Shown in pieces: positions 4,124-22,856 of a stretch of DNA of 23,218 nt (the first letter of the stretch is position 1; the number at the start of each line of letters is the position of its first letter). Source of the DNA: a virus; the IMG/VR virus record IMGVR_UViG_3300047661_000048, positions 1 to 23,218 of that record. The stretch is one strand, 5' to 3'. The position numbers were made by a program, and so were the translations under genes. Below the pieces are notes generated by a model that searched no databases, was not told the DNA's origin, and saw nothing but the letters and a program-made list of their open reading frames with translations.

Positions 4124-4126
4124 CGC

Positions 4127-4615
4127 TTACATCCCATTCCAATAAGGAAAAGAGCCGCCACGCTGATCGTGATCGCTGCCCGTGTATCCGTCCAGGTTGC
4201 GATCACTGAAGCGCTCCGGCTTGCGCGTTACTACAGCCTCGCCGGATGCCGATTGAGCCTGCTGCGCCGTCACGGGCTGATCGAGCGATGCCTTTCCAGT
4301 CGAAATGTCTTTCAGAAATGCAATTGCCTGGTCAAAGCGCTGCTGGACCGTGTCAGTGATGCGCGTCTCACGCCGACGGCTGAAAAGCAGATACAAGGTG
4401 ATGTCAAGCACAAGCGCTTTCACGTCGTCGGATTGCTGCAGCGGCGTGATATACCGCTGTCGGCAGTAACTGTCTACACGGCCCGACGCTTCTTCGAGAG
4501 CTGCGGTGACAACATCCGTGTTCACCTCTCCGGTGCTCTCGTCGTCGGTCAGCTGAACAAGATCCTTCTGCGTAAGCCGCAGGGGGACAAGATCGTCTTG
4601 GGTCGCGTAGGCCAT
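4127..4615 (-). CDS. Mu gp36-like DUF1320 head-tail connector protein
   Basis: A 162-aa protein beginning MAYATQDDLVPLRLTQKDLV, with EEASGRVDSYCRQRYITPL and VLDITLYLLFSRRRE. This succession (N-terminal YAT..DL, central A..E..GRVDSY...RY..PL, then a hydrophobic helix ending in R) is the DUF1320/gp36 signature, an all-helical adaptor that docks beneath the portal. The last 50 residues (FSDRNLDGYTGSDHDQRGG) look flexible. The ATG at 4615 is 2 bases after the upstream stop, and the gene ends 3 bases before the gpG-like gene. Neighbours are in Mu order: capsid, small gp35-like, gp36, gpG. Confidence 0.88.
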   Translation of the reverse strand: MAYATQDDLVPLRLTQKDLVQLTDDESTGEVNTDVVTAALEEASGRVDSYCRQRYITPLQQSDDVKALVLDITLYLLFSRRRETRITDTVQQRFDQAIAFLKDISTGKASLDQPVTAQQAQSASGEAVVTRKPERFSDRNLDGYTGSDHDQRGGSFPYWNGM

Positions 4616-6397: not shown

Positions 6398-7045
6398 CTA
6401 GACCGCGCCCGCCGTGCTGGCGCCAGGTGTCGAGGGCTTCCAGTCCTCGGCCTTGAGTTCCTTGAAGGCGTCGTTGTAGCCGATTTTCTTTTCCTTGGCG
6501 CGCTGTTTCACCGCCTCGTCGAAGAGGATGGAGTCAGGGTCAACGCCTTCCTTGAAGGTCAATCCGCCAGGAACTCCCGAGATGGAGAGAGCGCCCTCGG
6601 GCACGATCTGGCCCAGGCCATCGAGCACGTCGGTGAAAAGCTGCAAGGCATCTTTCTTCTGCTTCTTGTCGCCCTCGCCGAACTCGATCTCGACGATGTT
6701 GGCGGTGCCCAATGCGTGAAAGAGCTGCGGCACGCCCATATGCTCATAAGCGGGCAGCCAGTGCTTGTTGGCTTTCAGGGTAGCTACCGCATCCTTGGCG
6801 CGCTGAGAAAGCCCGGCCAGCGTCTGCGTTTTCTGGAACTCAGCAAACTGCGCTTCAACCGCTTCGCGCTTGGTGCGCTCGGCTGCCAGATCCGCAGCAA
6901 ACTTGGTTTGGATTTCCTTTTGCCCGGCGAGGATCAGGTCATTGACGCGATCTTCGCTGAATGTCGGCTGCGGGGCTGAGCCGCCGAGCAGTTCTCTCAG
7001 CGCCTCTTTTACCCTGTCCGCGATGGACTTGTTGTCGTCTGCCAT
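6398..7045 (-). CDS. Nested in-frame scaffold protein (Mu gpZ-like)
   Basis: An internal start in the same frame as the protease gives a 215-aa scaffold, MADDNKSIADRVKEALRELL to the shared stop. The ATG at 7045 (codon 168) has GAGGAG 7 bases upstream, far better than the ribosome site of the full-length gene. In Mu, gpZ is made from the 3' part of gene I in the same way, giving many scaffold copies per protease. The position of the start at the boundary between the protease domain and the helical region supports the reading. Independent expression is inferred, not shown. Confidence 0.72.
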   Translation of the reverse strand: MADDNKSIADRVKEALRELLGGSAPQPTFSEDRVNDLILAGQKEIQTKFAADLAAERTKREAVEAQFAEFQKTQTLAGLSQRAKDAVATLKANKHWLPAYEHMGVPQLFHALGTANIVEIEFGEGDKKQKKDALQLFTDVLDGLGQIVPEGALSISGVPGGLTFKEGVDPDSILFDEAVKQRAKEKKIGYNDAFKELKAEDWKPSTPGASTAGAV

Positions 7046-7546
7046 TGTGCTCTCCTCGTCAAAATCAATTGATTGAAATTCCGCCTGGCTAAATGCGGCA
7101 TCTGCCAAGCCCTTCACTTCTGGAACATCGGCGCCCAGAAAGCCCAGGTGCCGCAGACCATACCCGTCGGCGGACTTATAGAGCGCCACAGACCGCTTCT
7201 TATAACGTCCAGCAAGGACGCTCTCACGGAATGCGGGTTCCACTTGGTGGAGCTTCGCCATCAGCGTGCCGGCCACGTTCTTCAGCTTCGACACCCACGC
7301 ATAAGCAGGAGCGCCGCCCGCGATCTTGGGATGGCCCAGGACCACCGGCGCTTCGTGCTTCGCCGGGTCATAGTTGTTGGCGAGCTGCTGAACGTCGGCT
7401 TCGGAGTAGTTCCCCTTTTCGCCGTAATTACCGGCGCGGAAGATCTCCATCCACGGCGTTTCATCGTCGGCAGGCTGCGTAGTTACTGGTTGGAAAGGTT
7501 TGGCCACGAGATGAATATATAGGTCTAAAGGAGCAGGCAGGGACAC
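6398..7546 (-). CDS. Mu gpI-like prohead protease with C-terminal scaffold
   Basis: A 382-aa protein. Residues 30-165 fit the Mu-like prophage I protease: WMEIFRAGNYGEKGNYS, NNYDPAKHEAPVVLGHP, YAWVSKLKN, then RYKKRSVALY and LRHLGFLGADVPEVKGL. The histidine in VVLGHP and the serine in KKRSVAL are likely catalytic positions for this serine protease group, which cuts the scaffold and itself during head maturation. Residues 168-382 form the scaffold part: SIADRVKEALRELLGG, long charged helices (AADLAAERTKREAVEAQFAE) and a flexible end. The start used is the GTG at 7546, with a poor ribosome site; the exact N-terminus is uncertain within the first 30 residues. A 10-bp hairpin follows the gene, and an 80-base gap with a possible promoter precedes it. 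Confidence 0.88.
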   Translation of the reverse strand: MSLPAPLDLYIHLVAKPFQPVTTQPADDETPWMEIFRAGNYGEKGNYSEADVQQLANNYDPAKHEAPVVLGHPKIAGGAPAYAWVSKLKNVAGTLMAKLHQVEPAFRESVLAGRYKKRSVALYKSADGYGLRHLGFLGADVPEVKGLADAAFSQAEFQSIDFDEESTMADDNKSIADRVKEALRELLGGSAPQPTFSEDRVNDLILAGQKEIQTKFAADLAAERTKREAVEAQFAEFQKTQTLAGLSQRAKDAVATLKANKHWLPAYEHMGVPQLFHALGTANIVEIEFGEGDKKQKKDALQLFTDVLDGLGQIVPEGALSISGVPGGLTFKEGVDPDSILFDEAVKQRAKEKKIGYNDAFKELKAEDWKPSTPGASTAGAV

Positions 7547-7626: not shown

Positions 7627-8454
7627 TTATGCAGCCATCAGACTATGGAAGTCCGTCTGCTTTAGCTCAAGCAGTGTGAAAGGCTTCGTGCCCAGCCGCT
7701 CGATGCCGCCTTCAGAGCAGCCAGGATCGATCTCAAGAGCTTCTTCTTCGGTGAGAGGAACCACGGAACAACGGCAGTTGAAATCCCATGGTGGGTAAAT
7801 CTTACGCCAGACCGGATCGATGGCGCGAGCAATGAAGCCGTCAAGCTCCGCGTGGCCAGGGCGCACATGCAAATCGCCCACCGTCCAATATTGCCAGAAC
7901 GGAAGAGCCTCCATCATATGCGGCTCTTGCATTTGTTCGAGCCGGCCTGCGGAGTATGCTTTGGCCGTATTGGTATGAAAGACGGTGTCTAACTCAAATG
8001 CGGTCAGATCGGAGACGCCGGCGTCCGTGGTGATTTGGTGGACTTCCCTTTCGAAGTCGGCGCGGGTTCCACCGTGAGCCACTATTTCTGTCAGCGCATC
8101 GCGCACCTTGCCAATCACGCGCTGATCGTTCACTCCGGCGATGGTGAAGGCGTCACTGCGATATTGCCGCGAGAGGCCGTCGAAGACTTCTCGCGTGACC
8201 GGAGTCAGATCGCGCAGAAAATCGACAGCTCCGGTCGAAGGAAGATCAAACGAAAAGCCAACGTCGAAACTGGCTTTCTCCGTATTCTCCTGGTCTTGGG
8301 CGAAGGTGTGGATCAGGTGCGACCCGGTCGCCATCCGCACCGGCCGGCGCGTCTTCGCCAGGCCCACGCGCACAATGTGCAGACGGCCCAGCAGATTCGA
8401 GGCCGCCATGTAGCGGGCTAGCATGTCGCCGATCTTGACCTGGGATGAAATCAC
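7627..8454 (-). CDS. MuF / SPP1 gp7-like minor head protein
   Basis: A 275-aa protein of the phage head morphogenesis family (Mu gpF/gp30, SPP1 gp7). Visible landmarks are GFSFDLPSTGAVDFLRDLTP (residues 65-85), a helical region with HGGTRADFEREVHQI, the FHTNTAKAYSAGRLEQM motif (159-175), and the C-terminal box LPFWQYWTVGDLHVRPGH (184-201), IYPP (219-222), CRC (227-229) and TEEEAL. The protein is present in few copies near the portal and helps DNA entry or head assembly. It starts with GTG at 8454 in a GTGA overlap with the portal stop. Gene order portal-MuF-protease is as in Mu. A diverged second copy of this domain occurs at 16405-16980. Confidence 0.93.
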   Translation of the reverse strand: MISSQVKIGDMLARYMAASNLLGRLHIVRVGLAKTRRPVRMATGSHLIHTFAQDQENTEKASFDVGFSFDLPSTGAVDFLRDLTPVTREVFDGLSRQYRSDAFTIAGVNDQRVIGKVRDALTEIVAHGGTRADFEREVHQITTDAGVSDLTAFELDTVFHTNTAKAYSAGRLEQMQEPHMMEALPFWQYWTVGDLHVRPGHAELDGFIARAIDPVWRKIYPPWDFNCRCSVVPLTEEEALEIDPGCSEGGIERLGTKPFTLLELKQTDFHSLMAA

Positions 8455-9953
8455 TTGCCGCTCACGTTCGCCGCGATCATGCTCTCGGCCAACTCATGAA
8501 TGCGAGTGCGGTAGATCTTCGTCGATTCACCTTTCATCTGGTCGAAGACCCGGTCAAAATCCTTTTGCTCGTGGAGGACGGAATGCGGAGCCTTCGATTC
8601 CGTAAACGGGGTTCCACCGCTATCCTCATCACTTTCGTCGTCTTCCTCGTCATCGTCATTCCCGGCTGGATCTTCGCCGGGAACTGGAGGCGCAGGCGCG
8701 GCGGCAGGCTTCAGAATCACATCGCCAGCCTTTGGCTCGGGCAGTCCATAGGTTTCCTGCACATAACTCTGAGTGATCGGCATCCCCATTTTTTGCAAGG
8801 TGGAGTCAACGGTCGAGCGGTCGCCCAGGTCGGTTTCGTCCGCGTTGCTCAGTACCGCCTTGGGCATGGGAGCATCCGGGCCATAGTTCCACATCACCAA
8901 GTTGCGTACAACTTGGTCGTTCAGTACATCACCGAGCGATTTGGCCAGGCGCGCAGCCTTCTTTTCCTTCACGCCTTCGTGAACCGTTCCCAGTGCCTGT
9001 GTGCCTTTGCCGCCCTCACCACCGTGGCTGGTCAATGTCTCGCCCACCAGGTTGCGATAGATGGCCAGCTCACAGCGCATGCAGAGCTTCTCGTACACGT
9101 CCGGGTCTTGCGAACGCGCAATCTTCAGCAGATCTTCCATCAGGCCAAAGTTTTTAGGAACGGCAATCGCCACGCGCTCAATGATAGCTTCGGCGGCGGC
9201 CAGAGCCTCTTGCTTCTCGCTCTCATCCGCGCCTTGCTCGTATTGCACAACGGCTGTGCCTGGGCCTTTCTCGGCAAACCGCAGCCAGAACCGCATCGCC
9301 TGACGCTTGAACCAACTTGGCCAGAAGACCTTGCGGAGCAGCGGGCGGCCGCGCCGGTTGCGAGCACGCGGCCGATAACTGAAGATGGCGAACTTCTGCT
9401 CGGGTACTTCTACGCCCATGAGGTCGTATGGTGTGGTAAGCAGCCGCAGGTTCCCGGTCTGCGGATAGAACGGCAATGCAAACGTGAACAGCTCCTGGGG
9501 GGAGTCCTTTGCGTCCGTCAGCGAGACCTGGCCGGCGCTGACGTCGTACATCAGTTCCACGAGCGAGAACCCGTAGAACGGAGCATCCATGAGGCTGTCG
9601 AGCATCGACTCAAAGCCGGGCATCGCATCGAACTGCGACTGAACAAACTGCGCAATATCGATTGCGCGGCCGCTCTGGTCAGCGGGCTGCACGGTGAAGT
9701 TGCGATCCAGCACCGCCAGCTTTAGCTCTTCCATGGCCGCGCCCACGTCTTCATCTTTCTCTTCCAGCTCGCGATAGAACTGCACGGCAAAGGGCGTGTC
9801 CATCACCATCTGCTGCCACATGGCCGTGGGGTCGCTCATGCCGGTGAAGGCTTGCGCCAACCGCCAGGTGGTGTATTGATGCAGGTACAGGACATCCTGG
9901 GTAACGACTTCATCCTTCAGCGGCGCTTTCGATGGAACTTGAATATCGGCCAT
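8451..9953 (-). CDS. Portal protein (Mu gp29-like, DUF935)
   Basis: A 500-aa protein matching the DUF935 portal family: FYRELEEKDEDVGAAMEELK and LAVLDRNFTVQPAD near residues 58-95, then APFYGFSLVELMYD, the RPRARNRRGRPLLRKVFWPS segment, the WLRFAEKGPGTAVVQYEQGA core, and LTSHGGEGGKGTQALG ahead of the C-terminal helices. The portal is the dodecameric ring through which DNA is packaged. Around residues 420-445 there is a proline-rich then strongly acidic linker (EDPAGNDDDEEDDESDEDSG) that separates a small C-terminal helical domain. The ATG at 9953 shares a base with the terminase stop (TGATG), and the end overlaps the MuF gene by 4 bases. Confidence 0.94.
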   Translation of the reverse strand: MADIQVPSKAPLKDEVVTQDVLYLHQYTTWRLAQAFTGMSDPTAMWQQMVMDTPFAVQFYRELEEKDEDVGAAMEELKLAVLDRNFTVQPADQSGRAIDIAQFVQSQFDAMPGFESMLDSLMDAPFYGFSLVELMYDVSAGQVSLTDAKDSPQELFTFALPFYPQTGNLRLLTTPYDLMGVEVPEQKFAIFSYRPRARNRRGRPLLRKVFWPSWFKRQAMRFWLRFAEKGPGTAVVQYEQGADESEKQEALAAAEAIIERVAIAVPKNFGLMEDLLKIARSQDPDVYEKLCMRCELAIYRNLVGETLTSHGGEGGKGTQALGTVHEGVKEKKAARLAKSLGDVLNDQVVRNLVMWNYGPDAPMPKAVLSNADETDLGDRSTVDSTLQKMGMPITQSYVQETYGLPEPKAGDVILKPAAAPAPPVPGEDPAGNDDDEEDDESDEDSGGTPFTESKAPHSVLHEQKDFDRVFDQMKGESTKIYRTRIHELAESMIAANVSGK

Positions 9954-11419
9954 CAGAGAATCCCTCCGGAACTTGCATAAGTGGAGCGGCCACCCGGCAC
10001 GGTGACTTCATTGGAAACCGTGCCGGTATCGGCGGCTAGGTCAGCCAGTGCTTTGGCCCAGAACACGTCGGAGTGAGCGGTAGCTTTTTTCTTTCCTCCG
10101 CCGGCGACGGCCGTATCAATTTCGATTCGCGGAGCGTCGAAGGTGACGCCCGTCGAAGTGGCCTGGCGTTTAATCGCCTGCATCTCGGTCCGGATACGGC
10201 CGTCATACGGAATGCGGGAGCGCATCTGTTCGAAGCGTTTTTTGATTCTGATCGCCAAATCAGTTTTCATTCGCACCCCATTGTCGTTGGTTCCACCGAA
10301 ACTCACCCCAAGCAAGCGTCCTTCGTTCGTCACGTTCAGCAAGTCATACAGGCCAACACCCATGCCGGTTTTATCGATCGCCGCCCGGGCGCACAATCGC
10401 ACGATAGGATTGAGCGCGGCATTTTGATTCGGGAATGTGATGTTGTGAAGCCAGAACACGCCCCGCGTATACGCGACATCGCCTACCTTTTCATCGAGCC
10501 AGAGGCAGGTGGCATCATGATCGCGCCCAACATCGATTCCAGCGAACAGTGGGCCGCGTGGATTGAAGCGCGGATCAAGAAGCACGGTAGTATAGGAGTC
10601 CGGACCGATCTGGACGAGCTTCGCGTCGAGGGTATTATCCTCGCACGCCGAAATCAGATCGAGCGTGAGCCATGCGCCGGTGGACTTGCGGAAGACACAG
10701 CAGAACTCCTGATTCCAGGTGTCGTCGTCATTCAGGCCGCGCCGCATCTCCTCGATGTTGATCGGGCAGCCTTCGGCCACCGCCGCATACACATCCACAA
10801 AGTGGCCGCTCCATCCATCTTTTTTTACCGGCAATGCGGATGGGGCCACGCCATCGGCCAGGCCGAGGTTGCGGGCAATATCGTAGAACTTCCCCTGCTC
10901 GCCGTTCGGCGTGGAAAGCACTTCCAGGCTATTGCCCAGTGCAACTTGGCGAAAGACGGCGGCGAAGATTGCATAGCTGTCTTCGTGGTGTGCAAACTCG
11001 TCAAGCACCGCGTCGCCGGGATAACCGCGCGCGGTGCGCGGGTTGGCTGGTAGAGCGATGATGCGGCTGCCGTTAGGAAAAGAAATCCTGCTCTGGATAG
11101 CCTCAATGCGGCCAAGCGAATCGACAAAGTCTTCATTGGCGATGTGCTGGGCTGTGCCGCCCATCAATTGGCAGAGCTTCGCGCAGGTCTCGACAAACTC
11201 GACCGATTGCGCCTTTGAGGCGGAAAGCACTGTCGTTGTGCGCCCAGGAATCCGCATCGAGATCTCGACGCGGCGATAGGCGGTGGCGAACGAATAGCCA
11301 ATGCGCGCCGACTTCACCGTGCATTTGAAGCGCGTATCGTCGTCGATCCAGCGTTGCTGATAGGGCCGCATTTGCAGCACGGCCGGTAATTTGATTTGAT
11401 GGTCGAGAACTTCAATCAT
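9953..11419 (-). CDS. Terminase large subunit (Mu gp28-like)
   Basis: A 488-aa packaging motor. ATPase motifs: a deviant Walker A KSARIGYS (36-43), Walker B AVLDEFA (137-143, with catalytic E141) and the coupling motif STPNG (169-173). Nuclease domain of RNase H fold: D296 in AGIDVGRDHDAT, probably D349 in AIDKTGMG, and D451 in HSDVFWAKA. This enzyme cuts concatemeric or integrated DNA and drives it into the prohead; in transposing phages it cuts in flanking host DNA, giving headful packaging. Start ATG at 11419, overlapping the small terminase by 8 bases. Length and motif spacing are usual for this family. Confidence 0.94.
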   Translation of the reverse strand: MIEVLDHQIKLPAVLQMRPYQQRWIDDDTRFKCTVKSARIGYSFATAYRRVEISMRIPGRTTTVLSASKAQSVEFVETCAKLCQLMGGTAQHIANEDFVDSLGRIEAIQSRISFPNGSRIIALPANPRTARGYPGDAVLDEFAHHEDSYAIFAAVFRQVALGNSLEVLSTPNGEQGKFYDIARNLGLADGVAPSALPVKKDGWSGHFVDVYAAVAEGCPINIEEMRRGLNDDDTWNQEFCCVFRKSTGAWLTLDLISACEDNTLDAKLVQIGPDSYTTVLLDPRFNPRGPLFAGIDVGRDHDATCLWLDEKVGDVAYTRGVFWLHNITFPNQNAALNPIVRLCARAAIDKTGMGVGLYDLLNVTNEGRLLGVSFGGTNDNGVRMKTDLAIRIKKRFEQMRSRIPYDGRIRTEMQAIKRQATSTGVTFDAPRIEIDTAVAGGGKKKATAHSDVFWAKALADLAADTGTVSNEVTVPGGRSTYASSGGIL

Positions 11420-13349: not shown

Positions 13350-13721
13350 TTATTTGGTATCAGCTTCCTTCAGGGCTTTCCGCCCTGGTTTGCGCGGAGG
13401 CCCAATGCTGGACTGTGAGACCCACACACCCACCTCCGCTGCATCTATTTGTGCCCAGTCCGGCTCAAACAGCTCCTCCAATTCAAGGCGGCTTGAACAG
13501 CTTTTCACCTGCATCGCTCCCTTTACCAAGGCGGCAACTTGTCTCACAGGTATGCCAAGCTGAATAGAAATTTTGCCGTTCGAAAATCCCCGTCCAACCC
13601 AAACAGCAATCTCGTACTGACGAGGAGTCAAAGAAGCAGATCCCCGATACTCAAACCACTTACCTTCCGGCACAGACATTCCGTGCCTCTTTTTTGCCAG
13701 CCTTTTCGTTAAACTCTCCAT
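13350..13721 (-). CDS. LuxR/GerE-type HTH protein, candidate late regulator
   Basis: A 123-aa protein. The middle, LTPRQYEIAVWVGRGFSNGK then ISIQLGIPVRQVAALVKGAM, reads directly onto the LuxR/GerE DNA-binding motif (LTPRExEVL...GxSNKxIAxxLxIsxxTV). No receiver or ligand domain precedes it, only about 30 residues; the C-terminus is a 50-residue acidic then basic tail. A free-standing LuxR HTH is a DNA-binding transcription factor or sigma-like activator. It lies at the junction between the lysis block and the head module, so it may activate late promoters, the role of Mor and C in Mu, which belong to a different family. The ATG at 13721 is chosen for GGGAGGG 5 bases upstream; an ATG at 13733 is inside that ribosome site. 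Confidence 0.78.
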   Translation of the reverse strand: MESLTKRLAKKRHGMSVPEGKWFEYRGSASLTPRQYEIAVWVGRGFSNGKISIQLGIPVRQVAALVKGAMQVKSCSSRLELEELFEPDWAQIDAAEVGVWVSQSSIGPPRKPGRKALKEADTK

Positions 13722-13790
13722 AGTCCCTCCCATATACCCAGCCGAGCATCGGGACCGGCCGCCGTCATCCTCCCTGATGACCCGTAATCG

Positions 13791-13822
13791 CGCGAGAACG
13801 CTGTTCTCGATTTTTACTCGCG
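13791..13822 (+). terminator. Hairpin with T-tract on the plus strand
   Basis: A 7-bp stem, 13793-13799 with 13803-13809 (CGAGAAC / GTTCTCG, 3-base loop), followed on the plus strand by ATTTTTA. It looks like an intrinsic terminator for plus-strand transcription, though no plus-strand gene ends here; it might stop antisense transcripts. An alternative stem pairs 13791-13796 with 13817-13822 (CGCGAG / CTCGCG). The element lies in the 184-base gap ahead of the LuxR-type gene, so a role as leader structure or binding site on the minus strand is also possible. The rest of the gap shows nothing clear. Confidence 0.45.
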
Positions 13823-13905
13823 AAAAAGGATCTACCCCACCCCCAGAAAAAACCGACGCCTCAGAAAGGCTCCTACGCCGTTTTCGGCCTTCGGCCAGAA
13901 ACCCC

Positions 13906-14520
13906 TCACTGCACCGCCTGGTTCGAGGTCCGGTTCCAGATCGCCTCGAAGTCCGACTCGAACCTGCTCACCACGCCCGGCTCCCGGATCATCACCAGGG
14001 AATTGTCCTGGACTTTCAACCCCTGCGGCGACCAGTTCGCCGACCCCTCGCGCAGCAGCTTGCCGTCCACGGCGTATGCCTTCAGGTGCGCCAGCGCCAC
14101 CACGCCCTTGACCCGGACGTGGATATTGGGCTGGCCGCAGAACAGTGCGTTCAGGTTCGTGCCCCCCTTGACGCCGCGCGCCAGCTCGCCGGAGTATTGC
14201 GTCTGGTCGCGATAGATCCTGACCACCACGCCGCGCTGGGCCAGCTTCACCAACTCCTCGGCAACCGGCTTGTCGTCCATGGCAAAGCTCGAAATATCCA
14301 CGGCGCTCTTGGCCGTATCCAGCTCGACCAGGTCAATCGCCTCCAGATCCTCGGCCGGCGAGTAATGCACCTCGACAGCCGGCGCGGCCGCCGCCTGGGC
14401 AAACACATAGGTTGGGGCGCCCCCGCATCCCCGCGCCAAAAAGCAGCCCAGCATCGACCCGGCACAAAGTAGGAGCGCCTGCGCAACGCCGCGTATCAGT
14501 TTTGGCAAAGTCTTCATCAT
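13906..14520 (-). CDS. Exported phospholipase D-family (HKD) nuclease
   Basis: A 204-aa protein with one HKD motif: H145-x-K147-x4-D152 (HLKAYAVD) followed by GSAN (159-162) and WS. A single motif with about 150 residues of domain is the Nuc/EndA-type endonuclease arrangement, which works as a dimer and cuts DNA without metal. The first 43 residues form a signal peptide: KTLPK, hydrophobic core GVAQALLLCAGSMLGCFLA, and a possible cleavage site after VFAQA. The mature enzyme would therefore sit in the periplasm or outside. The start chosen is the ATG at 14520, overlapping the upstream stop as ATGA; a longer reading from 14598 would add 26 residues within the previous gene. An exported nuclease in a lysis block is unusual. 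Specificity (DNA, RNA or lipid) cannot be read from sequence. Confidence 0.85.
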   Translation of the reverse strand: MMKTLPKLIRGVAQALLLCAGSMLGCFLARGCGGAPTYVFAQAAAAPAVEVHYSPAEDLEAIDLVELDTAKSAVDISSFAMDDKPVAEELVKLAQRGVVVRIYRDQTQYSGELARGVKGGTNLNALFCGQPNIHVRVKGVVALAHLKAYAVDGKLLREGSANWSPQGLKVQDNSLVMIREPGVVSRFESDFEAIWNRTSNQAVQ

Positions 14521-14774
14521 CTGCTCCACTCCCCCACCACATCGCGGATTTTCTCCGCAACCAATCCTTCCGACATAAAAAACGGTTTCCGCGTGCATTG
14601 AATCGTCAGCGCCTGGCTGGGCTCGTCATAGATCCAGGTAGCCTCAAAGCCACCGCCACTGGCGGTGCCCGTGTCGCCCACGACGTTCACATCCGCCTGC
14701 GCCCTGATCCGCGCCCGGACGGCCTGGAAGCGCTCCCGCGTAATGCCCTTGAATACGACCGGCTTGCAAGCCAT
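14517..14774 (-). CDS. Small conserved-looking protein, unknown function
   Basis: An 85-aa soluble protein, MACKPVVFKGITRERFQAVR. The start is the ATG at 14774 with GGGAG 8 bases upstream; the longer reading from 14861 crosses a hairpin. Predicted layout is helix (ITRERFQAVRARIRAQ), turn with GDTGTASGGG, then strands (FEATWIYDEPSQALTIQCTR) and a final helix. The helix/two-strand/helix form resembles small domains found next to lysis genes but I cannot name a family. It overlaps the PLD nuclease gene by 4 bases, so the two are likely co-translated. Confidence 0.65.
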   Translation of the reverse strand: MACKPVVFKGITRERFQAVRARIRAQADVNVVGDTGTASGGGFEATWIYDEPSQALTIQCTRKPFFMSEGLVAEKIRDVVGEWSR

Positions 14775-15651: not shown

Positions 15652-16140
15652 TTATCCTTCCGCCGACGCTGTCGGCACATCGTATTGCGTTAAGTCGAAC
15701 TCGCGCACCAACTGCATGAGCGATTTCGCGTAGTTGGGATTGGTGGAGTAGCCGCACCGCTGAATTGCATTGGCAAACTCGGCGGCAGAACGTCTAACAG
15801 CCATGGCCGGGATATAGCGGCTAGCGCCAGAGAGCAGCTTGGCGTGAGCCGTAAAGCCTGCGGCCTGGCTCGGATACCGGGCAAAGCGGGCCTCCTCCTC
15901 GATGGAGTGGCCATTGACCACCTCATGCGTGGGCAGCTCGATGTATCTTTCCGGATTCGCGGCCTGAACGGCCTTGATGCCAAAATAGTTGTTGGCTTTG
16001 CGCGCCAGCGCTGAGCACCCCCAGCCCGATTCCAAAATGGCCTGGGCGATGGTGATCGAGGCAGGCACGCCCGTCGCGCCCTGCGAGGCAATCGCCGCCG
16101 GTACCGCCGCCTGCAAAAATCTGGATTGAATTTCGTTCAT
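15652..16140 (-). CDS. Endolysin: glucosaminidase (GH73, FlgJ-type)
   Basis: A 162-aa single-domain peptidoglycan hydrolase. Motifs: FLQAAVPAAIASQGATGVPA, SITIAQAILESGWGCSALAR with the likely catalytic Glu in AILESGWG, then NNYFGIKAVQA, and AAGFTAHAKLLSGASRY, ending in the family phrase IQRCGYSTNPNYAKSLMQLV. These are the conserved blocks of the mannosyl-glycoprotein endo-beta-N-acetylglucosaminidase family, which cuts the glycan strand. There is no signal peptide, so export through the holin is expected. The ATG at 16140 is chosen; a TTG at 16158 is the only in-frame alternative. The ribosome site is weak, and a strongly folded leader precedes it. Confidence 0.92.
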   Translation of the reverse strand: MNEIQSRFLQAAVPAAIASQGATGVPASITIAQAILESGWGCSALARKANNYFGIKAVQAANPERYIELPTHEVVNGHSIEEEARFARYPSQAAGFTAHAKLLSGASRYIPAMAVRRSAAEFANAIQRCGYSTNPNYAKSLMQLVREFDLTQYDVPTASAEG

Positions 16141-16160
16141 CGCCGTCCCCGCCTTCAATC

Positions 16161-16330: not shown

Positions 16331-16370
16331 CAATAAAAGCAATCGCCGCCCGTGAATTCGGGCGGCGATT
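16331..16370 (-). terminator. Strong rho-independent terminator between accessory and lysis genes
   Basis: A 12-bp perfect stem, 16341-16352 with 16359-16370 (AATCGCCGCCCG / CGGGCGGCGATT), 6-base loop, followed on the minus strand by GCTTTTATT. It lies 34 bases beyond the stop of the MuF-like accessory gene. It should insulate the late lysis genes from transcripts that begin at the repressor promoter. Confidence 0.85.
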
Positions 16371-16404
16371 GGGGAAGAATCGAGGGTCTTATTTAGCTAT
16401 AAGA

Positions 16405-16980
16405 TCATATGAGATCGTATTGATAATCCGGCCTTACATCGAGCCAATTTTTACATGCAGCGAGAATTTCAGGAGGTACTTTTATGTCGATCCCTTTCTC
16501 TTCTAGTGCTTCTTCTTCACACATTGAGACCACTCCACATCCACATGCCCATCCATTCGGCGGATAAATTGATTCCCAGATAGGGGCATCAAACCGTGCG
16601 ACTAGCCCGTCGAGCATGGAATGCGAAGAGCAGAAGCGAGTCATACAGTCTAACTGCCAATAAGGCAGTCCCTCCGAAACAGCAAGCGAATCCTGATGGC
16701 GGTGATATGAGCAAATAGCTGAAGAAACGCTACTGAAAAGCAGATTGGCCCATTTTTTATCGAGACTGGCTACGCAGACCGGAGCATCCGATGATTGAAG
16801 CCATTTAATGAAATCGCGATCGATTGATCCGTCGCGGACAAAGCCAAGAATTCGATCAGCAATTAACGGTGCAGAATCGTTTGCGTCAATTCCATCCCAT
16901 CGAAGCACCCTCTCGACCATCGCCACCGAAAGAGGAGCAGGGGCATACTCAGTTCTTAGATTGAAGGAAAAACCAGACAT
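16405..16980 (-). CDS. Diverged MuF-domain paralogue in the accessory block
   Basis: A 191-aa protein that I can align by eye with the phage's own MuF head protein over its core: GFSFNLR near the start (versus GFSFDLP), a middle helix RILGFVRDGSIDRDFIKWL, LLFSSVSSAICSYHRHQDSL in place of the F-T-N-AY-GR motif, then LPYWQ (105-109), H120, LDGLVARFDAPIWESIYPP (to 141), CGC (146-148) and EEEALE. It lacks the first 65 residues of the head protein, has lost the Arg of RPxH, and has CGC instead of CRC. It is not in the head module but between repressor and lysis genes, and is followed by a terminator. The DNA is more AT-rich than the head genes. It might interfere with head assembly, or be a decaying duplicate from another phage. 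The alignment is seen; the role is inference. Confidence 0.75.
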   Translation of the reverse strand: MSGFSFNLRTEYAPAPLSVAMVERVLRWDGIDANDSAPLIADRILGFVRDGSIDRDFIKWLQSSDAPVCVASLDKKWANLLFSSVSSAICSYHRHQDSLAVSEGLPYWQLDCMTRFCSSHSMLDGLVARFDAPIWESIYPPNGWACGCGVVSMCEEEALEEKGIDIKVPPEILAACKNWLDVRPDYQYDLI

Positions 16981-16982
16981 CT

Positions 16983-17102
16983 TTATGCTCTCACTTTCAG
17001 GTTCGACAGGTGTAGGGCTTCGTTTAACTCGCGGTTGACGATAGCGTAGTCGTGCACTCCGGCCTCATGCCAATCATCATAAACGGCGGTAATGCTTCCC
17101 AC
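16983..17102 (-). CDS. Small ORF or gene remnant before the MuF-like gene
   Basis: A 39-aa reading frame from a GTG at 17102: VGSITAVYDDWHEAGVHDYA then IVNRELNEALHLSNLKVRA. The stop lies 2 bases before the ATG of the MuF-like gene, which suggests a real upstream cistron. The open frame continues a few codons upstream of the GTG without an ATG, and there is no good ribosome site, so it may be the 3' end of a longer, truncated gene. The sequence looks protein-like (balanced, amphipathic helix). No family recognised. Confidence 0.35.
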   Translation of the reverse strand: MGSITAVYDDWHEAGVHDYAIVNRELNEALHLSNLKVRA

Positions 17103-17135
17103 GGGTATTTGAACTAGGCATCTCCGCTTGTTTGT

Positions 17136-17498
17136 TTATTTAGCGCTAGCCAGGCACGTTTCCGCATCCCCGCGAAGATTAGCCTTCGGAGGATTGTCGC
17201 GCACCAACTCATAGGAGCCTGATTTCTGGATCATCTGTTGCCCGTCCACAAACTTGAGATAGCGATCCAGACAAACTATCCGATCTGCATTTCTGCTTCC
17301 CTCGAAGCGCCTCAACCTCTGGACTGATTCTCTCGCAGTCAGGTCTGCGGTATCACCGAAAGTCTCAGCGTTCTGAATCGAATCGAGCGCCTCAAGCGTC
17401 AATTGCTGTTCAATATGTTGGCGTCGTAGGTTGTGTCCCCATAAAGCGACAAGAAAAACCACGACGACGGGAAAAATCACCCATCTCCATATTTTCAT
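17136..17498 (-). CDS. Membrane-anchored accessory protein
   Basis: A 120-aa protein: one N-terminal hydrophobic segment (IWRWVIFPVVVVFLVALWGH, residues 3-22), then a soluble part of about 95 residues beginning NLRRQHIEQQLTLEALDSIQ and containing two Cys (IVCLDRYLKF, ETCLASAK) that could form a disulphide outside the cytoplasm. The first residues are only weakly charged, so orientation is not certain. The gene lies in the repressor-proximal, AT-richer block. Single-TM small proteins in this position are often lysogenic conversion or superinfection exclusion proteins; here that is inference from place alone. Confidence 0.65.
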   Translation of the reverse strand: MKIWRWVIFPVVVVFLVALWGHNLRRQHIEQQLTLEALDSIQNAETFGDTADLTARESVQRLRRFEGSRNADRIVCLDRYLKFVDGQQMIQKSGSYELVRDNPPKANLRGDAETCLASAK

Positions 17499-17562
17499 CG
17501 ACTTTCACTTTCTGACCGGCAGCGGATAGCCGATTCACTTCGTTATGTTCTCACTTTCCAGG

Positions 17563-17844
17563 CTAGAAGTTAGCCAAGGTCGAGGATGTCTCACTGGAAG
17601 CCGCCATATCCTTTCCATGCACTTTGTGACGTCGTTCGACATCATCGTCGGAATGATAAATGTTGATTTCTATACAGTCGCGGTCATAAATCGAGATATG
17701 ATTCCCAGGGGAATTTACATGGATAGATACGCCGCGGCGCTCTTGATCTTTCTCCAACTCGGGTTCGACTGCGTCCATAAATTCTCCTAGCTGCTCAACC
17801 AGATGCAATCTTTCTCTCTCTGTCACCAAGGCCCTCGGAGTCAT
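17563..17844 (-). CDS. Small soluble protein immediately after the repressor
   Basis: A 93-aa hydrophilic protein, MTPRALVTERERLHLVEQLG, followed by EFMDAVEPELEKDQERRGVS and a strand-rich IHVNSPGNHISIYDRDCIEI. It begins 15 bases after the repressor stop, so it is probably co-transcribed with it and made in the lysogen. The ATG at 17844 has no clear ribosome site, so translation may depend on ribosomes ending at the repressor. I prefer this strand to the overlapping plus-strand frame because of orientation, spacing and composition. Function unknown. Confidence 0.6.
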   Translation of the reverse strand: MTPRALVTERERLHLVEQLGEFMDAVEPELEKDQERRGVSIHVNSPGNHISIYDRDCIEINIYHSDDDVERRHKVHGKDMAASSETSSTLANF

Positions 17845-17859
17845 GATATTGATCGCTAG

Positions 17860-18330
17860 TCATGCGGTCATTAGGAATTTTTCCACCATACCAGGGTCCT
17901 CGGTCTTCATTTTGTGACACAGCTCATAGTAAAAAACGACCTTTTCTGCAAATTCGCGACCGGAGAGCGTACCCGTAGTCACACTGAACTTTTTAGTTAG
18001 AGCCTCCATCACCACCGCTAGCAACTCCGGATCCCATCTAGGGCGTGGTTCTGGCCGGTCGTCATTGACGTCACGCATTCTTCGGGCTACCTGCTCAAAT
18101 CCCCCATCAATAATCAACTGTTTCTGAACATCGCTATGCGGGGCGGCCAGTTTCGCCAGGTCAAGATACGTCCGGCGGCTGGGCGTGATCTCACCGCTCT
18201 CCCATCTAGAGACAGTCGCTTGTTTAACGTCGAGGCGCTTGGCGAATGCTTGCTGGTCGAGTTTAAGGCTCTTCCGTAGCTGGAAAATCCGCTCGGCCTG
18301 CGACGACCGCATTTTTTGTGGTCTGGGCAT
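17860..18330 (-). CDS. XRE-family phage repressor
   Basis: A 156-aa protein with an N-terminal XRE HTH at about residues 12-66: AERIFQLRKSLKLDQQAFAK, RLDVKQATVSRWESGEITPS, RRTYLDLAKLA. The recognition-helix region QATVSRWESG is the family hallmark. The C-terminal 90 residues (WDPELLAVVMEALTKKFSVT, helical LSGREFAEKVVFYYELCHKM) probably mediate oligomerisation; no Ser-Lys autocleavage pair of the LexA/CI type is evident. It would repress the early operon that diverges from it and hold the prophage silent. The ATG at 18330 is used because it directly precedes the HTH domain and has AGGG upstream; a frame open back to 18654 crosses the operator and the divergent gene and is not credible. Confidence 0.87.
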   Translation of the reverse strand: MPRPQKMRSSQAERIFQLRKSLKLDQQAFAKRLDVKQATVSRWESGEITPSRRTYLDLAKLAAPHSDVQKQLIIDGGFEQVARRMRDVNDDRPEPRPRWDPELLAVVMEALTKKFSVTTGTLSGREFAEKVVFYYELCHKMKTEDPGMVEKFLMTA

Positions 18331-18341
18331 ACAAATTTCCC

Positions 18342-18382
18342 TTGACGGGAACATACGCGCCGTATATTCTTCACGTATATTC
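18342..18382. promoter_or_regulatory. Early promoter and repressor operators (genetic switch)
   Basis: Plus-strand promoter: -35 TTGACG (18342-18347), 17-base spacer, -10 TATTCT (18365-18370), and start about 18377. Three half-sites of one 9-base motif: GAACATACG (18349-18357) and CGTATATTC (18361-18369) form a dyad with 3 central bases and one mismatch, lying exactly between -35 and -10; a second CGTATATTC is at 18374-18382. On the minus strand TTGAAA (18392-18387) is a possible -35 for the repressor promoter, with a poor -10 (GAATAT, 18369-18364) over the same half-site. Binding at the dyad should block the early promoter and could also affect the repressor promoter. Confidence 0.7.
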
Positions 18383-18393
18383 GAGGTTTCAAT

Positions 18394-18600
18394 TTGTACA
18401 CCCATTTTAGCCCGACACAGCGGAAGATCCGCGCTATTCAGAGCCGCAGGCTCAACTACAGCTCGCTGGCGCGGGAACTTGGCGTTACGCCACAACATGT
18501 TCGGCGAGTCGCTCTGGGGATGAGCGTCTCGGAGCGGGTGCTTAAGCGCATTGAACGCGAGTACCGCAGGATCGAGCGGGAAGCCGAGCGCGCGGCATGA
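18394..18600 (+). CDS. Ner/Cro-like early HTH regulator
   Basis: A 68-aa basic protein starting at a TTG (18394) that has GAGG 7 bases upstream, with no ATG alternative before the HTH. The core SSLARELGVTPQHVRRVALG is a compact helix-turn-helix, followed by a highly charged helix (RVLKRIEREYRRIEREAERA). In Mu, Ner occupies this place, directly opposite the repressor, and turns down both early and repressor promoters during lytic growth. By sequence it is a small HTH only; I infer the Ner/Cro role from position. The rare TTG start may keep its level low. It overlaps the next gene by 4 bases (ATGA). Confidence 0.72.
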   Translation: MYTHFSPTQRKIRAIQSRRLNYSSLARELGVTPQHVRRVALGMSVSERVLKRIEREYRRIEREAERAA

Positions 18601-19103
18601 GCAAATCGTTTCCATCACGTACTCAGTCTCCCGCCAGAGCATCCGGTGTGTCACCGGCTAATTTTGGAGGGATTTCGACCGTCCAGACCCATCCTTCTCT
18701 CTTCGAGAACCATCTGGATGCACTTCCTGGCAGTCTGAACGATTCCGCTATGGTCCGTGCGGTCCTCATTGAGTCCATCCGCAAATGCGACAAAAGCCGC
18801 GCCCAGATTGCCGAAGACGTCACTTTTTTCTCTGGCCGAGAGGTGACGGAAATTTCCCTGAACAAATTTACCGCCGAGAGCCGGACAGACTACCGCTGGC
18901 CCGCTGAACTCGACCGCACCTTCTGCCGCGCCGTCGGCGACGATACGCTGTTGCGCTGCCGCGCCGAGCTGGCCGGATACCACGTCATTGACTCCACCGA
19001 AGCTGAACTGCTCGACCTCGGGCGGGAATACCTCCGCCAGAAACGTGCTAGCGAAAAAGTAGCTCTTCTGGAAAAGAGACTCGCGGGGATGGAACTGGCA
19101 TGA
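18597..19103 (+). CDS. Conserved early phage protein of unknown function
   Basis: A 168-aa protein. The first 45 residues are Ser/Pro-rich and look disordered. Then comes a helical region: MVRAVLIESIRKCDKSRAQI, AEDVTFFSGREVTEISLNKF, TAESRTDYRWPAELDRTFCR and AVGDDTLLRCRAELAGYHVI, ending in a coiled coil (LGREYLRQKRASEKVALLEK). The order 'KSRxQIAExx...SGxEVTxxxLNxFTAES' has the feel of a diverged HTH plus linker, and such proteins occur next to transposase genes in Mu-like phages. It may bind DNA and help early regulation or transposition. I cannot name a family. It overlaps both neighbours by 4 bases, so translation is coupled. Confidence 0.7.
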   Translation: MSKSFPSRTQSPARASGVSPANFGGISTVQTHPSLFENHLDALPGSLNDSAMVRAVLIESIRKCDKSRAQIAEDVTFFSGREVTEISLNKFTAESRTDYRWPAELDRTFCRAVGDDTLLRCRAELAGYHVIDSTEAELLDLGREYLRQKRASEKVALLEKRLAGMELA

Positions 19104-19873
19104 GAAAACCTACACGTTTCTCTGTGGCTCTCGACTTCGCTTGCGCGGCTATGACTGTGCTGATGTCGGGTTATGTGGCTGACAAGGTTCTCCGCGAAGC
19201 AAAAAACAGAAAGCGCCCTCTGAAACCGAAGTCAACAGTTTCCGGTCCCGGCCCGCTTCAAAACATCGACCGCAAAGAATTCCGAAATGGAGGACGCTAC
19301 CACGGCCTTCTTACCCGTGTAGCAAAGACACTTGGAGTATCCCCTTCATCTGTGCAGTTGTCTTCTCGCGGGGCCTGCCATTCCAAACGGATCATCGATG
19401 CAATAGTTGCAGAAATTCGTCGGACTGACGCTGAACTTGAAAATTCACCGCTCCCCGTGCCTCTCACTGCATTAGAACGCGCGGAATTTTCCTTCGGCGG
19501 AAAATACTATGGCGTCTCTGGCCGCGTTGCAAAATCGCTTGGAATGCTCAATTCAAATATGCACCGCATTGTCCGTGGAAAATTGCGCACTCCGCGAGTT
19601 CTCGCGGCCCTTCGTAAGGAGATGGCCCGCGTAGATGCTCTTCCTCGTGATCCGCTACCCGAGCCACTTACGAAAGAAGAAATAGCTCAATTCAAAAACG
19701 GTCGCAAATACTATGGCCTCTACACGCGAGTAGCTCAAGCCGTAGGAATGAGAGCAAACGCTTTTTATCACATGTCAGCTAGAAGTAGCGTTTCGCAGCC
19801 CGAAATGATCAGGGCACTTCGCGCCGAGATGGCCCGCGTGGATGCCGAGCTTGCCGCAAAGGGGAGCAAATGA
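19100..19873 (+). CDS. Protein with three tandem HTH-like repeats beside the transposase
   Basis: A 257-aa protein made of three repeats at about residues 60-113, 129-180 and 197-250, spaced 68-69 residues. Each has the form F..GG.YYG...RVAK.LGM (for example EFSFGGKYYGVSGRVAKSLG), then a HTH-like turn and basic residues, then ALRxEMARVDA. Linkers are proline-rich (SPLPVPLTALE, DPLPEPLTKEE). Residues 8-25 are hydrophobic (SVALDFACAAMTVLMSGY) and could be a membrane anchor or packing helix. The ATG start overlaps the previous stop, and the end overlaps the transposase start (ATGA), so it is made with the transposase. Codons are more AT-rich than in the transposase. Three DNA-binding units in a row suggest recognition of repeated sites such as phage ends; that is inference. 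Confidence 0.75.
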   Translation: MRKPTRFSVALDFACAAMTVLMSGYVADKVLREAKNRKRPLKPKSTVSGPGPLQNIDRKEFRNGGRYHGLLTRVAKTLGVSPSSVQLSSRGACHSKRIIDAIVAEIRRTDAELENSPLPVPLTALERAEFSFGGKYYGVSGRVAKSLGMLNSNMHRIVRGKLRTPRVLAALRKEMARVDALPRDPLPEPLTKEEIAQFKNGRKYYGLYTRVAQAVGMRANAFYHMSARSSVSQPEMIRALRAEMARVDAELAAKGSK

Positions 19874-21912
19874 GCGCCTTCCCACAACTAGCGATGACGC
19901 CCCAGCTCGGCCCCTGGGTGAGCAAAGACGAGGCGCTGCGCCTCTGTGGATGCAGCGAAAACTGGCTGCGTCGGATGACCGTCTACGGCAAAGTGATCAG
20001 CCGCCAGACAGATAGGCGCGCTGCCAATGGGCGGTTAATCCGTGAATACCTAAGCGCTTCGTTTCCAGCGCCCGCGCCCCAGACACAGCTTTCGATTGTT
20101 CCTGCTCCAAACTCCAGCTTTGGCCCGCTCTTTGCCAATGTGCCCGCTGATCGATTGCAGAGGGTGATTCTGCCCAGTCCCGAGGCCCAAAGGCAAGCCG
20201 AGTATCGCTTCTCGGTGATCCAACCGCTCCTCGACTACGCGCAGAACGCGGAGCGTCTTGCGCGTCTGCAACTGCCCGACCGTCGGCCTGTCACCTCGCT
20301 CAGTCGGTTGATTGAGCATATCGCAGCCAGCAACCCGCAGCCTGTCAGCGTTCGTACATTGAAAAGCTGGCTCGCGCGTTATCGGAAAGGGGGCTTTGCC
20401 GCCCTGGCTGACTTCGTGCGCTCAGATAAGAATGTCGCGCGCTGGGCCACTCAGAGCCCCCAGCACGCCGAGTTAGCTGATCTGGCAGCTTACGCCTACC
20501 TCAAAGAGCAGCTCAACAAGAAAATGTCTTGGGAAATTGTTGTGTGCCGAGCCCAGCAGCTTGAGATCGAGCCGCCCAGCTACGAATCCCTGCGCACCTA
20601 CTTGGAGAAGTTGCCCCCTGCCGTCAAGACGCTGGCTCTCAAAGGCCGCGACAAATACGACGATCTTTTCGCGCCTTACCTCCGGCGCGGTTACACGGAT
20701 ATTGAAGCGGGAGAAATTTTAGTCAGCGACCACGCGTGGGTCGATATTCTCGTTCAGAATGACCTCTTCGACGCTAAAGACCGCGAGCATATGAGGCTGC
20801 GCTTCACTGGCCTTCAGGACATGCGTAGCCGGAAAATTCTGGCTTACAGTTTCTCGCAGGATGGCTCTTCGCGATCTATCAATACCTGCCTGCGCCACAT
20901 GCTCGAAACCTATGGCACCTTCCGCGAATTTTACTGCGACAACGGCAAGGACTACCTCAAGGTCGGCAAAGGCGCACGCGGACCTGAAGCGGAATATCTA
21001 CCGCCGGAAGCGCAGGGCGTTTTGGCGCGGCTGGGTTGCAGGGTCACTTACTGCCAGCCCTATCACGGACAGAGCAAATTGATTGAGAGCTTCAATCACA
21101 TTCTGCACCAGCGCTTCGACCGCCGCTGGGCGACCTATTGCGGGCCGACCTTCGAGCAGCGCCCCGACCGCTGCACCGCTGCGCTGGAGCGGCACAAGAA
21201 ACTGCTAGCCCAGGGCCGCGCCGACGAATCCGAACTGCCCCTGGCCAGTGAATTCATCCGCGCCGCCATTTTGTGGATAGAAAGCGAATACAACAACCGG
21301 CCCAAGAACGTTCCAGGCATGGATGGCCTCTCGCCCAACGAGGCTTTCGAAAAGTTTCGCTGGCACGGCTCGAAGCCTGCTCCTGAGCCGCACATCCTGG
21401 CCTCGCTGCTGGCTGAGCGCGCTCTGCGTATTGTTCACGAGTGCGCCGTGAAAATGGCTAACCGCCGTTTTGTCGGCGTTGATGAGCCCAGCCAGCGGGC
21501 GCTGCATGATCGCACCGGGCAACAGATCATCGTGGCCTATGATCCGCTCGACCTCAATGCACTGGCAGCTATTGATGAAGACGGCTGCGTCTTTGCCTAC
21601 CTGGAACCGGAAACCTTTCTGCGCCAATCCCGAGACGACGAGACGCAAGAGGCCATCGCCGCCAGTATGCGCGAGCGCCAGCACCGTTACCACGAGACGC
21701 GCGATCAGCTCAACGATCTGGGCCGCCGCGTACTCGGCACCGGCTACATGCCGCAGCACAATCAGATGCTTCAGCTCGGCCGTCTGCCTATCGATATTGA
21801 GCAGCTTGTCGTCCATCGCCCGCAATCCACCAAACTGCAACCCACCACCATCACAGCGCCGGCCACACCGGCGGAAGCCGCTCGACTCTTCAGGGAGGGA
21901 CTCAAAAAGTGA
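19870..21912 (+). CDS. Mu-type DDE transposase (MuA-like)
   Basis: A 680-aa protein with the MuA layout. Residues 15-60 are a HTH-like N-terminal domain (VSKDEALRLCGCSENWLRRM); residues 105-260 are helical DNA-binding domains with a second HTH (VSVRTLKSWLARYRKGGFAA). The catalytic core of RNase H fold spans about 280-420: D287 in LVSDHAWVDIL, D357 in FYCDNGKDY and E406 in GQSKLIESFNHIL. A Mu C-terminal beta-barrel (540-600, including QRALHDRTGQQIIVAYDPLD) and a final region that would contact the ATPase partner follow. It cuts phage ends and joins them to target DNA, for integration and replicative transposition. ATG overlaps the previous gene; the end overlaps the ATPase gene. Confidence 0.95.
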   Translation: MSAFPQLAMTPQLGPWVSKDEALRLCGCSENWLRRMTVYGKVISRQTDRRAANGRLIREYLSASFPAPAPQTQLSIVPAPNSSFGPLFANVPADRLQRVILPSPEAQRQAEYRFSVIQPLLDYAQNAERLARLQLPDRRPVTSLSRLIEHIAASNPQPVSVRTLKSWLARYRKGGFAALADFVRSDKNVARWATQSPQHAELADLAAYAYLKEQLNKKMSWEIVVCRAQQLEIEPPSYESLRTYLEKLPPAVKTLALKGRDKYDDLFAPYLRRGYTDIEAGEILVSDHAWVDILVQNDLFDAKDREHMRLRFTGLQDMRSRKILAYSFSQDGSSRSINTCLRHMLETYGTFREFYCDNGKDYLKVGKGARGPEAEYLPPEAQGVLARLGCRVTYCQPYHGQSKLIESFNHILHQRFDRRWATYCGPTFEQRPDRCTAALERHKKLLAQGRADESELPLASEFIRAAILWIESEYNNRPKNVPGMDGLSPNEAFEKFRWHGSKPAPEPHILASLLAERALRIVHECAVKMANRRFVGVDEPSQRALHDRTGQQIIVAYDPLDLNALAAIDEDGCVFAYLEPETFLRQSRDDETQEAIAASMRERQHRYHETRDQLNDLGRRVLGTGYMPQHNQMLQLGRLPIDIEQLVVHRPQSTKLQPTTITAPATPAEAARLFREGLKK

Positions 21913-22856
21913 CCCAACTCGCCAACACCACCGCCGATCTTCGCCCGCTCGTAACCGATTACCTGCGCCGCTCTGGCATGTCATCGGAAGATTTTGCGCT
22001 CCGCATCGGCTACAACTACAGCACCGTGGCGCAATACCTTTGCGGTCGTTACAGCCGCATCGCCAAAGCCGACCAGATCAATGCCGCGATTCTTGCCTTC
22101 ATCACAGGCAACCCAATCACCTCAGATCAACTCACGACCAAGATCTACGAAACCAGCGCCGTCCGGACAATGCGCAGCCTCTTCCACAAAGCGCTGGAGC
22201 GACCCCAGGTCTACATGGTCTATGCGCCTCCGGGCTCGGGCAAAACCGACGTGGCGCGCCACCTGATCGCCGAGCACAACGCCCAGAGCGCCGGGCAGCC
22301 CAGCTACATCTTCCGCGTCTACTGCCGCGCCCGCATCTGCCCCCGCGATCTGCTCAAGCGCGTGGCCACGGCCTGCGGCGCACACTCCAGCACGGCTATC
22401 GACCGCGCCATCCACAATCTGCGCTGGGACTTTCGCGGCGCGCGCGTGGTGCTCTACTTCGACGAGTCGCAGCATCTGAGTATTCCCGCATTCGAAACGG
22501 TACGCGAGCTGCTCGACGAAGAGCCGCGCTTCTCGCTGATCTTTGCCGGATCGCACGAACTGGAAAAGACCTTCAACGACTTCAGCGGCACCCTCGAACA
22601 ACTCCAGCGCCGCATCACCGACAAGGTTCATCTGCCCGCGCTTACCGCCGACGAAGCCGCTGGCATTCTGCGCACCGAGCTGGCCGAGTTCTCGCTCGAT
22701 GCCGCAACCATCCGCCAGCAGATTGAATTGGCCACCATCACCGTGCGCGTGGACAAGCGCAATCAGCGTTACATCTCCATCGGCCGCCTCATGGCCGCGA
22801 TCCGCGAGATCCGCGACGGCTTGGCCGCCACTGCCGAACCCGCTTTGCAGAACTAG
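21909..22856 (+). CDS. Transposition ATPase (MuB-like, AAA+)
   Basis: A 315-aa ATPase. The N-terminus has a HTH region (MSSEDFALRIGYNYSTVAQY, about 24-45). The Walker A is YAPPGSGKT (105-113) and Walker B VVLYFDESQ (180-188, D185 and E186), followed by a likely sensor 1 FSLIFAGSHEL and an arginine-containing C-terminal lid domain (LQRRITDKVHLPALTADEA). MuB-type proteins polymerise on DNA, choose the target site and activate the transposase; they also give target immunity. GTG start at 21909 overlaps the transposase stop (GTGA). The length is normal for MuB (312 aa in Mu). The assignment by motifs and position is firm. Confidence 0.93.
   Translation: MTQLANTTADLRPLVTDYLRRSGMSSEDFALRIGYNYSTVAQYLCGRYSRIAKADQINAAILAFITGNPITSDQLTTKIYETSAVRTMRSLFHKALERPQVYMVYAPPGSGKTDVARHLIAEHNAQSAGQPSYIFRVYCRARICPRDLLKRVATACGAHSSTAIDRAIHNLRWDFRGARVVLYFDESQHLSIPAFETVRELLDEEPRFSLIFAGSHELEKTFNDFSGTLEQLQRRITDKVHLPALTADEAAGILRTELAEFSLDAATIRQQIELATITVRVDKRNQRYISIGRLMAAIREIRDGLAATAEPALQN

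Follow-up and report, generated by a model that had tools for sequence, protein, structure and literature searches.

We analysed an IMG/VR virus record of 23,218 bases (the window), which comes from an uncultivated Mu-like phage; it had no DNA match among 50,697 annotated phage records and no match in an Rfam search. Its plus-strand early operon diverges from a minus-strand repressor block, which is followed by a terminator and then by the late genes (Table 1). An earlier, sequence-only reading had described this block as a single-orientation series of a repressor, a 93-aa protein (g93), a 120-aa membrane protein (g120), a 39-aa ORF and a MuF-domain protein (F2). All five were found on the minus strand, and no terminator was detected within the block. 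Related phages, given L numbers below, were collected with TerL as bait, and TerL also served as a control gene. Two genes elsewhere in the window deserve mention: the 257-aa early protein shows internal repeat-like self-similarity (residues 119-249 match elsewhere in the same gene with 45%), and a late-region protein (13906-14598), homologues of which occur in the late region of several relatives, carries a PLD-like domain (PF13091, E = 5.5e-18) and weakly matches DrmC.

Table 1 Genes and sequence features of the window discussed in the text.
Feature	Positions	Strand	Evidence or remark
Head maturation protease (Mu I-like)	6398..7546	-	phrog_976, E = 2e-55
True late MuF minor head protein	7627..8454	-	PF04233, E = 4.8e-19; phrog_220, E = 9e-47
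Portal protein	8451..9953	-	phrog_113, E = 1.5e-81
TerL (terminase large subunit)	9953..11419	-	phrog_2, E = 7e-30
Glucosaminidase, probable lysis gene	15652..16158	-	PF01832, E = 6e-34; first late gene past the terminator
Intrinsic terminator	16340..16371	-	13-bp stem; marks the right end of the exchangeable cassette
F2, stand-alone MuF relative, 191 aa	16405..16980	-	phrog_220, E = 8.5e-14; closes the cassette
Junction linker / ribosome-binding stretch CTGAAAGTGAGAGCATAAAG	16981..17000	-	conserved upstream of F2 in relatives
39-aa ORF	16983..17102	-	3'-terminal relic of an older repressor
g120, 120-aa protein	17136..17498	-	one N-terminal transmembrane segment
Junction linker copy GGAAAGTGAGAACATAACG	17541..17559	-	pattern search; between g93 and g120
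g93, 93-aa protein	17563..17844	-	homologues directly after the repressor in relatives
XRE-type phage repressor, 156 aa	17860..18330	-	HTH_3, E = 3.3e-11; phrog_8, E = 8e-11; leads the cassette
Candidate operator	18361..18382		two direct copies of CGTATATTC, 13 bp apart; putative function
Early operon	18597..22856	+	regulator, 257-aa protein, MuA-like transposase, MuB-like ATPase; divergent from the repressor
Early regulator	18597-19103	+	phrog_2345
257-aa early protein	19100-19873	+	
MuA-like transposase	19870-21912	+	
MuB-like ATPase	21909-22856	+	

The block ends at a terminator as first described, with a stem of 13 rather than 12 base pairs. This hairpin exceeds chance expectation because compensating changes preserve it in two relatives, L173 and L145: the arms read GCCGCCCG/CGGGCGGC in the window, GCCGCTCG/CGAGCGGC in L173 and GCCGCCTG/CAGGCGGC in L145. 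The repressor promoter that the genes had been thought to share was not recovered, as no minus-strand site upstream of position 18330 scored above chance. The candidate operator covers the -10 end of a promoter-like site of the early operon (18342-18370, +), which itself scores at chance level. AT-richness had been read as a sign of acquired cargo. The block is indeed AT-richer than its flanks and forms the lowest-GC part of the window (0.496 versus 0.591 for the rest); the post-repressor slot is similarly AT-rich in all eight F2-bearing phages (0.50-0.57 versus 0.58-0.64). We therefore rejected AT-richness as a mark of recent acquisition and regard it as a general property of the slot.

Comparison with L173 delimits the block as a unit of exchange. 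Both flanks of L173 are 88-94% identical to those of the window, and the repressor and cargo are different: between the early regulator and the terminator, L173 carries another repressor, a 206-aa relative of g93 and a 193-aa membrane protein. Homology returns no more than 2 bases from the start of the terminator stem, while on the left the swapped block extends into the operator region. The L145 cassette (repressor, g93 and a member of the tm125 family) finishes at the same terminator as that of the window. The return of homology at the terminator, together with paired changes that keep the stem in three phages, therefore indicates that the cassette was swapped whole, and the L173 swap and shared terminator make the block boundaries drawn in the sequence-only reading biologically meaningful. 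The interpretation given there is supported in part. Its central proposal, an accessory lysogeny cassette, is well supported in the form of an operator/repressor-to-terminator block swapped as one unit between phages that are 88-94% identical in their flanks. Accessory genes are present or absent among close relatives at this one locus, as seen both in a survey of the slot and in the L173 swap; they encode mostly small membrane, secreted or regulator-like proteins, and they are not uniformly conserved as virion parts. As a transcription unit, the cassette has the terminator with compensating changes, and the promoter search returned nothing. Taken together, the block is very probably an exchangeable, repressor-led lysogeny cassette whose genes would be expressed in the lysogen. 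Moron or immunity cassettes are a known kind, and F2 is the unusual part of this one.

L173 differs from the window elsewhere as well. It lacks ~10.7 kb, including TerL, portal, MuF and protease, and has an ORF at 3876-4427 (-) (13584-14135 reversed) in which the N-terminal ~61 residues of the glucosaminidase are joined to the part of the 324-aa late protein (window 4900-5874) that begins at about residue 195. L173 is a deletion derivative that has lost its packaging genes or else a chimeric contig.

Cargo of the g93/g120 kind, a small repressor-associated protein and a membrane protein, often confers superinfection exclusion, which is a candidate role here. At least 15 of 18 relatives with a called repressor, a count that includes the window, encode a strong hydrophobic segment in one of the first two post-repressor genes. 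Members of the g93 family lie just after the repressor in the window, L095, L096, L145 and L170, with longer relatives in L022 and L173; their matches include antirepressor PHROGs, and the longer relative in L022 has an ORF6C domain. The tm125 family occupies the slot in L004, L009, L145, L165 and L177. With its N-terminal hydrophobic segment (19-aa mean hydropathy 2.1) and its alignment to the tm125 profile (hhalign, E = 1.4e-4, probability 52%), g120 is probably a distant, divergent member of this family, and the repressor-g93-tm125 order of L145 parallels that of the window. Other occupants include a 201-aa secreted family (L003, L099, L156, L175), adenine-methylase-like proteins assigned by eye from the sequence start (L101, L174, L176, L182) and small CxxCG proteins (L101, L108, L165, L168, L176). 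The last of these, with the pattern CxxCGxxAG...H...C, are encoded immediately downstream of either the repressor gene or the first cargo gene and are probably zinc ribbons. PADLOC identified no known defence family among the cargo.

The 39-aa ORF proved not to be a cassette gene. It shares 53% identity with the C-terminal 38 residues of the L004 repressor, and its DNA is ~72% identical to the end of the L020 repressor gene, the similarity running on into F2. The repressors of L020, L004, L005 and L009 all end in NRKV(R/K)(A/T), and F2 follows, directly or past one inserted gene. This homology to the repressor tail of relatives led us to reject the ORF as cargo; a newer repressor with g93 and g120 has displaced an older repressor, of which the last codons remain. 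These codons contain (C/G)GAAAGTGAGAACRTRATG, the stretch preceding F2 in relatives, where the linker upstream of F2 doubles as codons for the last repressor residues. We searched for this linker with the pattern GGAAAGTGAGAACGTGATG, allowing up to 4 mismatches and using shuffled sequence, which gave 0 matches, as a control. The pattern occurs at the window g93/g120 junction and recurs in seven other relatives at post-repressor gene junctions (two copies each in L004 and L009; also L005, L020, L101, L138 and L176), and three other matches lie near early regulators of the window, L004 and L173. It may act in the translation or coupling of the gene that follows, and may also offer short homology for cassette exchange.

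The assignment of F2 as a MuF-domain paralogue was borne out by profile searches, with the strongest match to phrog_220 (Table 1); PF04233 matches at E = 9e-6, just below its curated cut-off (26.8 versus 29.6 bits), and the NCBIfam model TIGR01641 falls further short (18.3 versus 39.65). An AlphaFold2 model built from 35 F2 and MuF rows, an alignment that thus contained MuF sequences, reached a pLDDT of 82.6, and its best viral matches were phage head-morphogenesis models; prediction from the eight F2 relatives alone was poor (pLDDT 55). The predicted structure shows the MuF fold with its conserved core. Comparison of sequence and fold with the PDB matched no MuF structure, an absence that is uninformative. 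F2 lacks the first ~65 residues of MuF and retains F4, G51, P106, H120, LD 123-124, W135, PP 140-141 and CxC 146-148. It ends soon after the CxC motif, with no further domain of the kind found in polymorphic toxins. Only 14 of 85 MuF-invariant columns are kept, and F2 has 13 invariant positions of its own, among them C117, G147, C176 and W179; with 71 columns lost and others gained, binding of F2 to the MuF site is therefore not assured. In a tree with 37 MuF proteins F2 is monophyletic and stands apart (support 100/100, long branches flagged); the family is old and has a single origin. Purifying selection acts on F2 (dN/dS 0.10 and 0.22), the L004-L009 pair being too close for such a judgement.

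F2 orthologues are present in eight lineages: the window, L003, L004, L005, L009, L020, L022 (the same type as L021) and L142 (the same contig as L023). Searches started from L022, L142 and L020 added no new lineage. We found no orthologue in annotated phages or GTDB genomes; annotated-phage matches were partial, and among the matches listed the annotated ones were late MuF proteins. Whereas true MuF genes follow the portal gene, the F2 gene of every one of the eight lineages comes immediately after the repressor or the cargo behind it. Its start overlaps the repressor stop in L005 and L020, lies within 6 nt of it in L142, and in the window is 2 nt from the repressor relic; terminators follow F2 in the window, L003 and L142. 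Gene order, stop/start overlap and terminators thus suggest that F2 belongs to the transcript of the repressor. F2 is missing from about 27 related contigs in which the slot is covered, including L145 and L095, despite late MuF proteins similar to that of the window (91% and 85% identical, respectively). F2 is therefore neither a core gene nor obligatory in the virion, and its absence from close relatives led us to reject the latter role.

The tm125-F2 pair was recently exchanged between L004 and L009, which share a head type: dS is 0.09 and ~0.02 (0.024 for F2) versus 1.18 for MuF. The L009 TerL is only 35-41% identical to that of the other F2-bearing phages, in contrast to 85-96% identity with L004/L005 for portal, MuF and F2; this is a clean terminase swap.

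We compared F2 distances with those of other genes using Mantel correlations over eight phages and exact permutation P values; three of the phages are close for F2. The correlation was highest with MuF (r = 0.88, P = 0.0004), followed by portal (r = 0.76, P = 0.0008) and protease (r = 0.71, P = 0.0015). Values were near zero for TerL (r = -0.02) and a 110-aa late gene (0.02), as well as for MuB (-0.01) and lysozyme (0.01; six phages each), and the adjoining repressor gave r = 0.30 (P = 0.14, seven phages). Eleven genes were compared at first, and the F2-MuF value survives correction for these comparisons. With four late genes controlled, the partial correlation was 0.81 (one permutation in eight used). 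When the set was restricted to six well-separated phages, F2-MuF was still highest (0.79-0.81, P = 0.022), and TerL rose to 0.26-0.53, so that shared vertical history is a possible contributor. Gene conversion between F2 and the MuF gene of the same phage was rejected as a source of the signal, since F2 resembles its own MuF (25.0%) no more closely than it resembles others (24.8%). The type of F2 matches the head type and not the type of the adjoining repressor.

Our best reading, offered tentatively, is a lysogeny-expressed moron cassette with a neofunctionalised MuF decoy that acts on heads of the same type. F2 would be produced together with the repressor in the lysogen and, as a MuF core without the N-terminal part, would still engage the portal/MuF site of own-type heads. 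There it would compete with the real MuF, of which it may be a partner or competitor, and leave such heads poorly infectious. The heads in question could be those of a superinfecting phage that is heteroimmune but shares the head type, or those arising from leaky late expression of the prophage, and the effect should be greatest against heteroimmune relatives with swapped repressors. We lean towards an action of F2 on head components, presumably through portal/MuF binding; that this action is that of an interfering decoy, with the phenotype it implies, is a guess we make with less assurance.

The co-divergence might instead reflect a shared vertical backbone within which other genes were exchanged, F2 having left head function to become a neofunctionalised host- or phage-directed lysogeny protein. 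The few MuF-invariant columns kept, the 13 positions invariant in F2 alone (C117 and C176 included) and the moderate TerL correlation with six phages fit such a history. However, the repressor, MuA/MuB, lysozyme and TerL have been exchanged around F2 while F2 stayed with its head type, and even the recent move of F2 with tm125 between L004 and L009 was within one head type; we consider this account unlikely, though it is the weightiest alternative. Less probable again is an accessory virion role, in which F2 would enter the head as a second MuF, for example as an optional ejection protein. Such a role would explain the MuF fold and the co-divergence with portal and MuF, but F2 sits in the repressor operon with a terminator between it and the late genes, and phages with near-identical heads (L145, L095) do without it. 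Finally, F2 could be a safety catch that serves just the prophage carrying it, neutralising leaky portal/MuF in the lysogen, with no role against other phages. Co-expression with the repressor, as predicted from gene order, and the match to its own head genes agree with this proposal, to which we nevertheless give the lowest probability, since F2 is absent from most relatives with the same slot and has moved between phages within the cassette, as weapons and shields do.

The interfering decoy can be set against several known systems. The MuF prototype, SPP1 gp7, binds the portal strongly and is dispensable for assembly, with ~25% of gp7-less virions being infectious (PMC6316719). F2 resembles it in the MuF fold and the H-x2-LDG ... 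PPNGW-C-x-C core, and differs in standing alone without the N-terminus, in belonging to a repressor operon rather than a post-portal position and in its own invariant residues. In the Pseudomonas aeruginosa transposable phage Fc02, the repressor-transcript genes olg1/sie1 give superinfection exclusion (PMC9936078). In both cases accessory genes of a Mu-like phage lie in the repressor transcript and are made in the lysogen, as described there and predicted here. The Fc02 genes, however, precede the repressor and overlap gene 10, and no MuF relative is described there; a search of the phage collection also gave no DNA homology to the cassette. Fc02 is thus a precedent for the position of the cassette and not for F2. 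MuF has been turned to conflict in the MuF polymorphic toxins of temperate phages (PMC5576092). Unlike these, F2 has no C-terminal toxin extension and lies outside the head module.

A MuF gene adjoining a repressor is a simple marker for finding more F2-like proteins. Superinfection exclusion usually relies on membrane or entry blockers and repressors. If the decoy reading is true, a lysogen-made relative of a head protein that is matched to head type, not immunity type, would form a different layer of prophage defence, one that would guard against recombinant phages escaping by the repressor swaps that are frequent in this lineage. In its strongest and rather doubtful form, a temperate phage lineage would have recruited its minor head protein as a restriction factor, made in lysogeny together with the repressor, that blocks the portal/MuF function of same-head-type superinfectors. 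Fv1 and similar proteins are retroviral capsid-derived restriction factors. They belong to another domain of life and have another fold, and interference by F2 is proposed; the suggested logic is nonetheless alike, in that a relative of a structural protein, made from an integrated copy, restricts related viruses. On this view, which we rate as less likely than not, F2 would be a phage counterpart of Fv1 that is exchanged within immunity cassettes.
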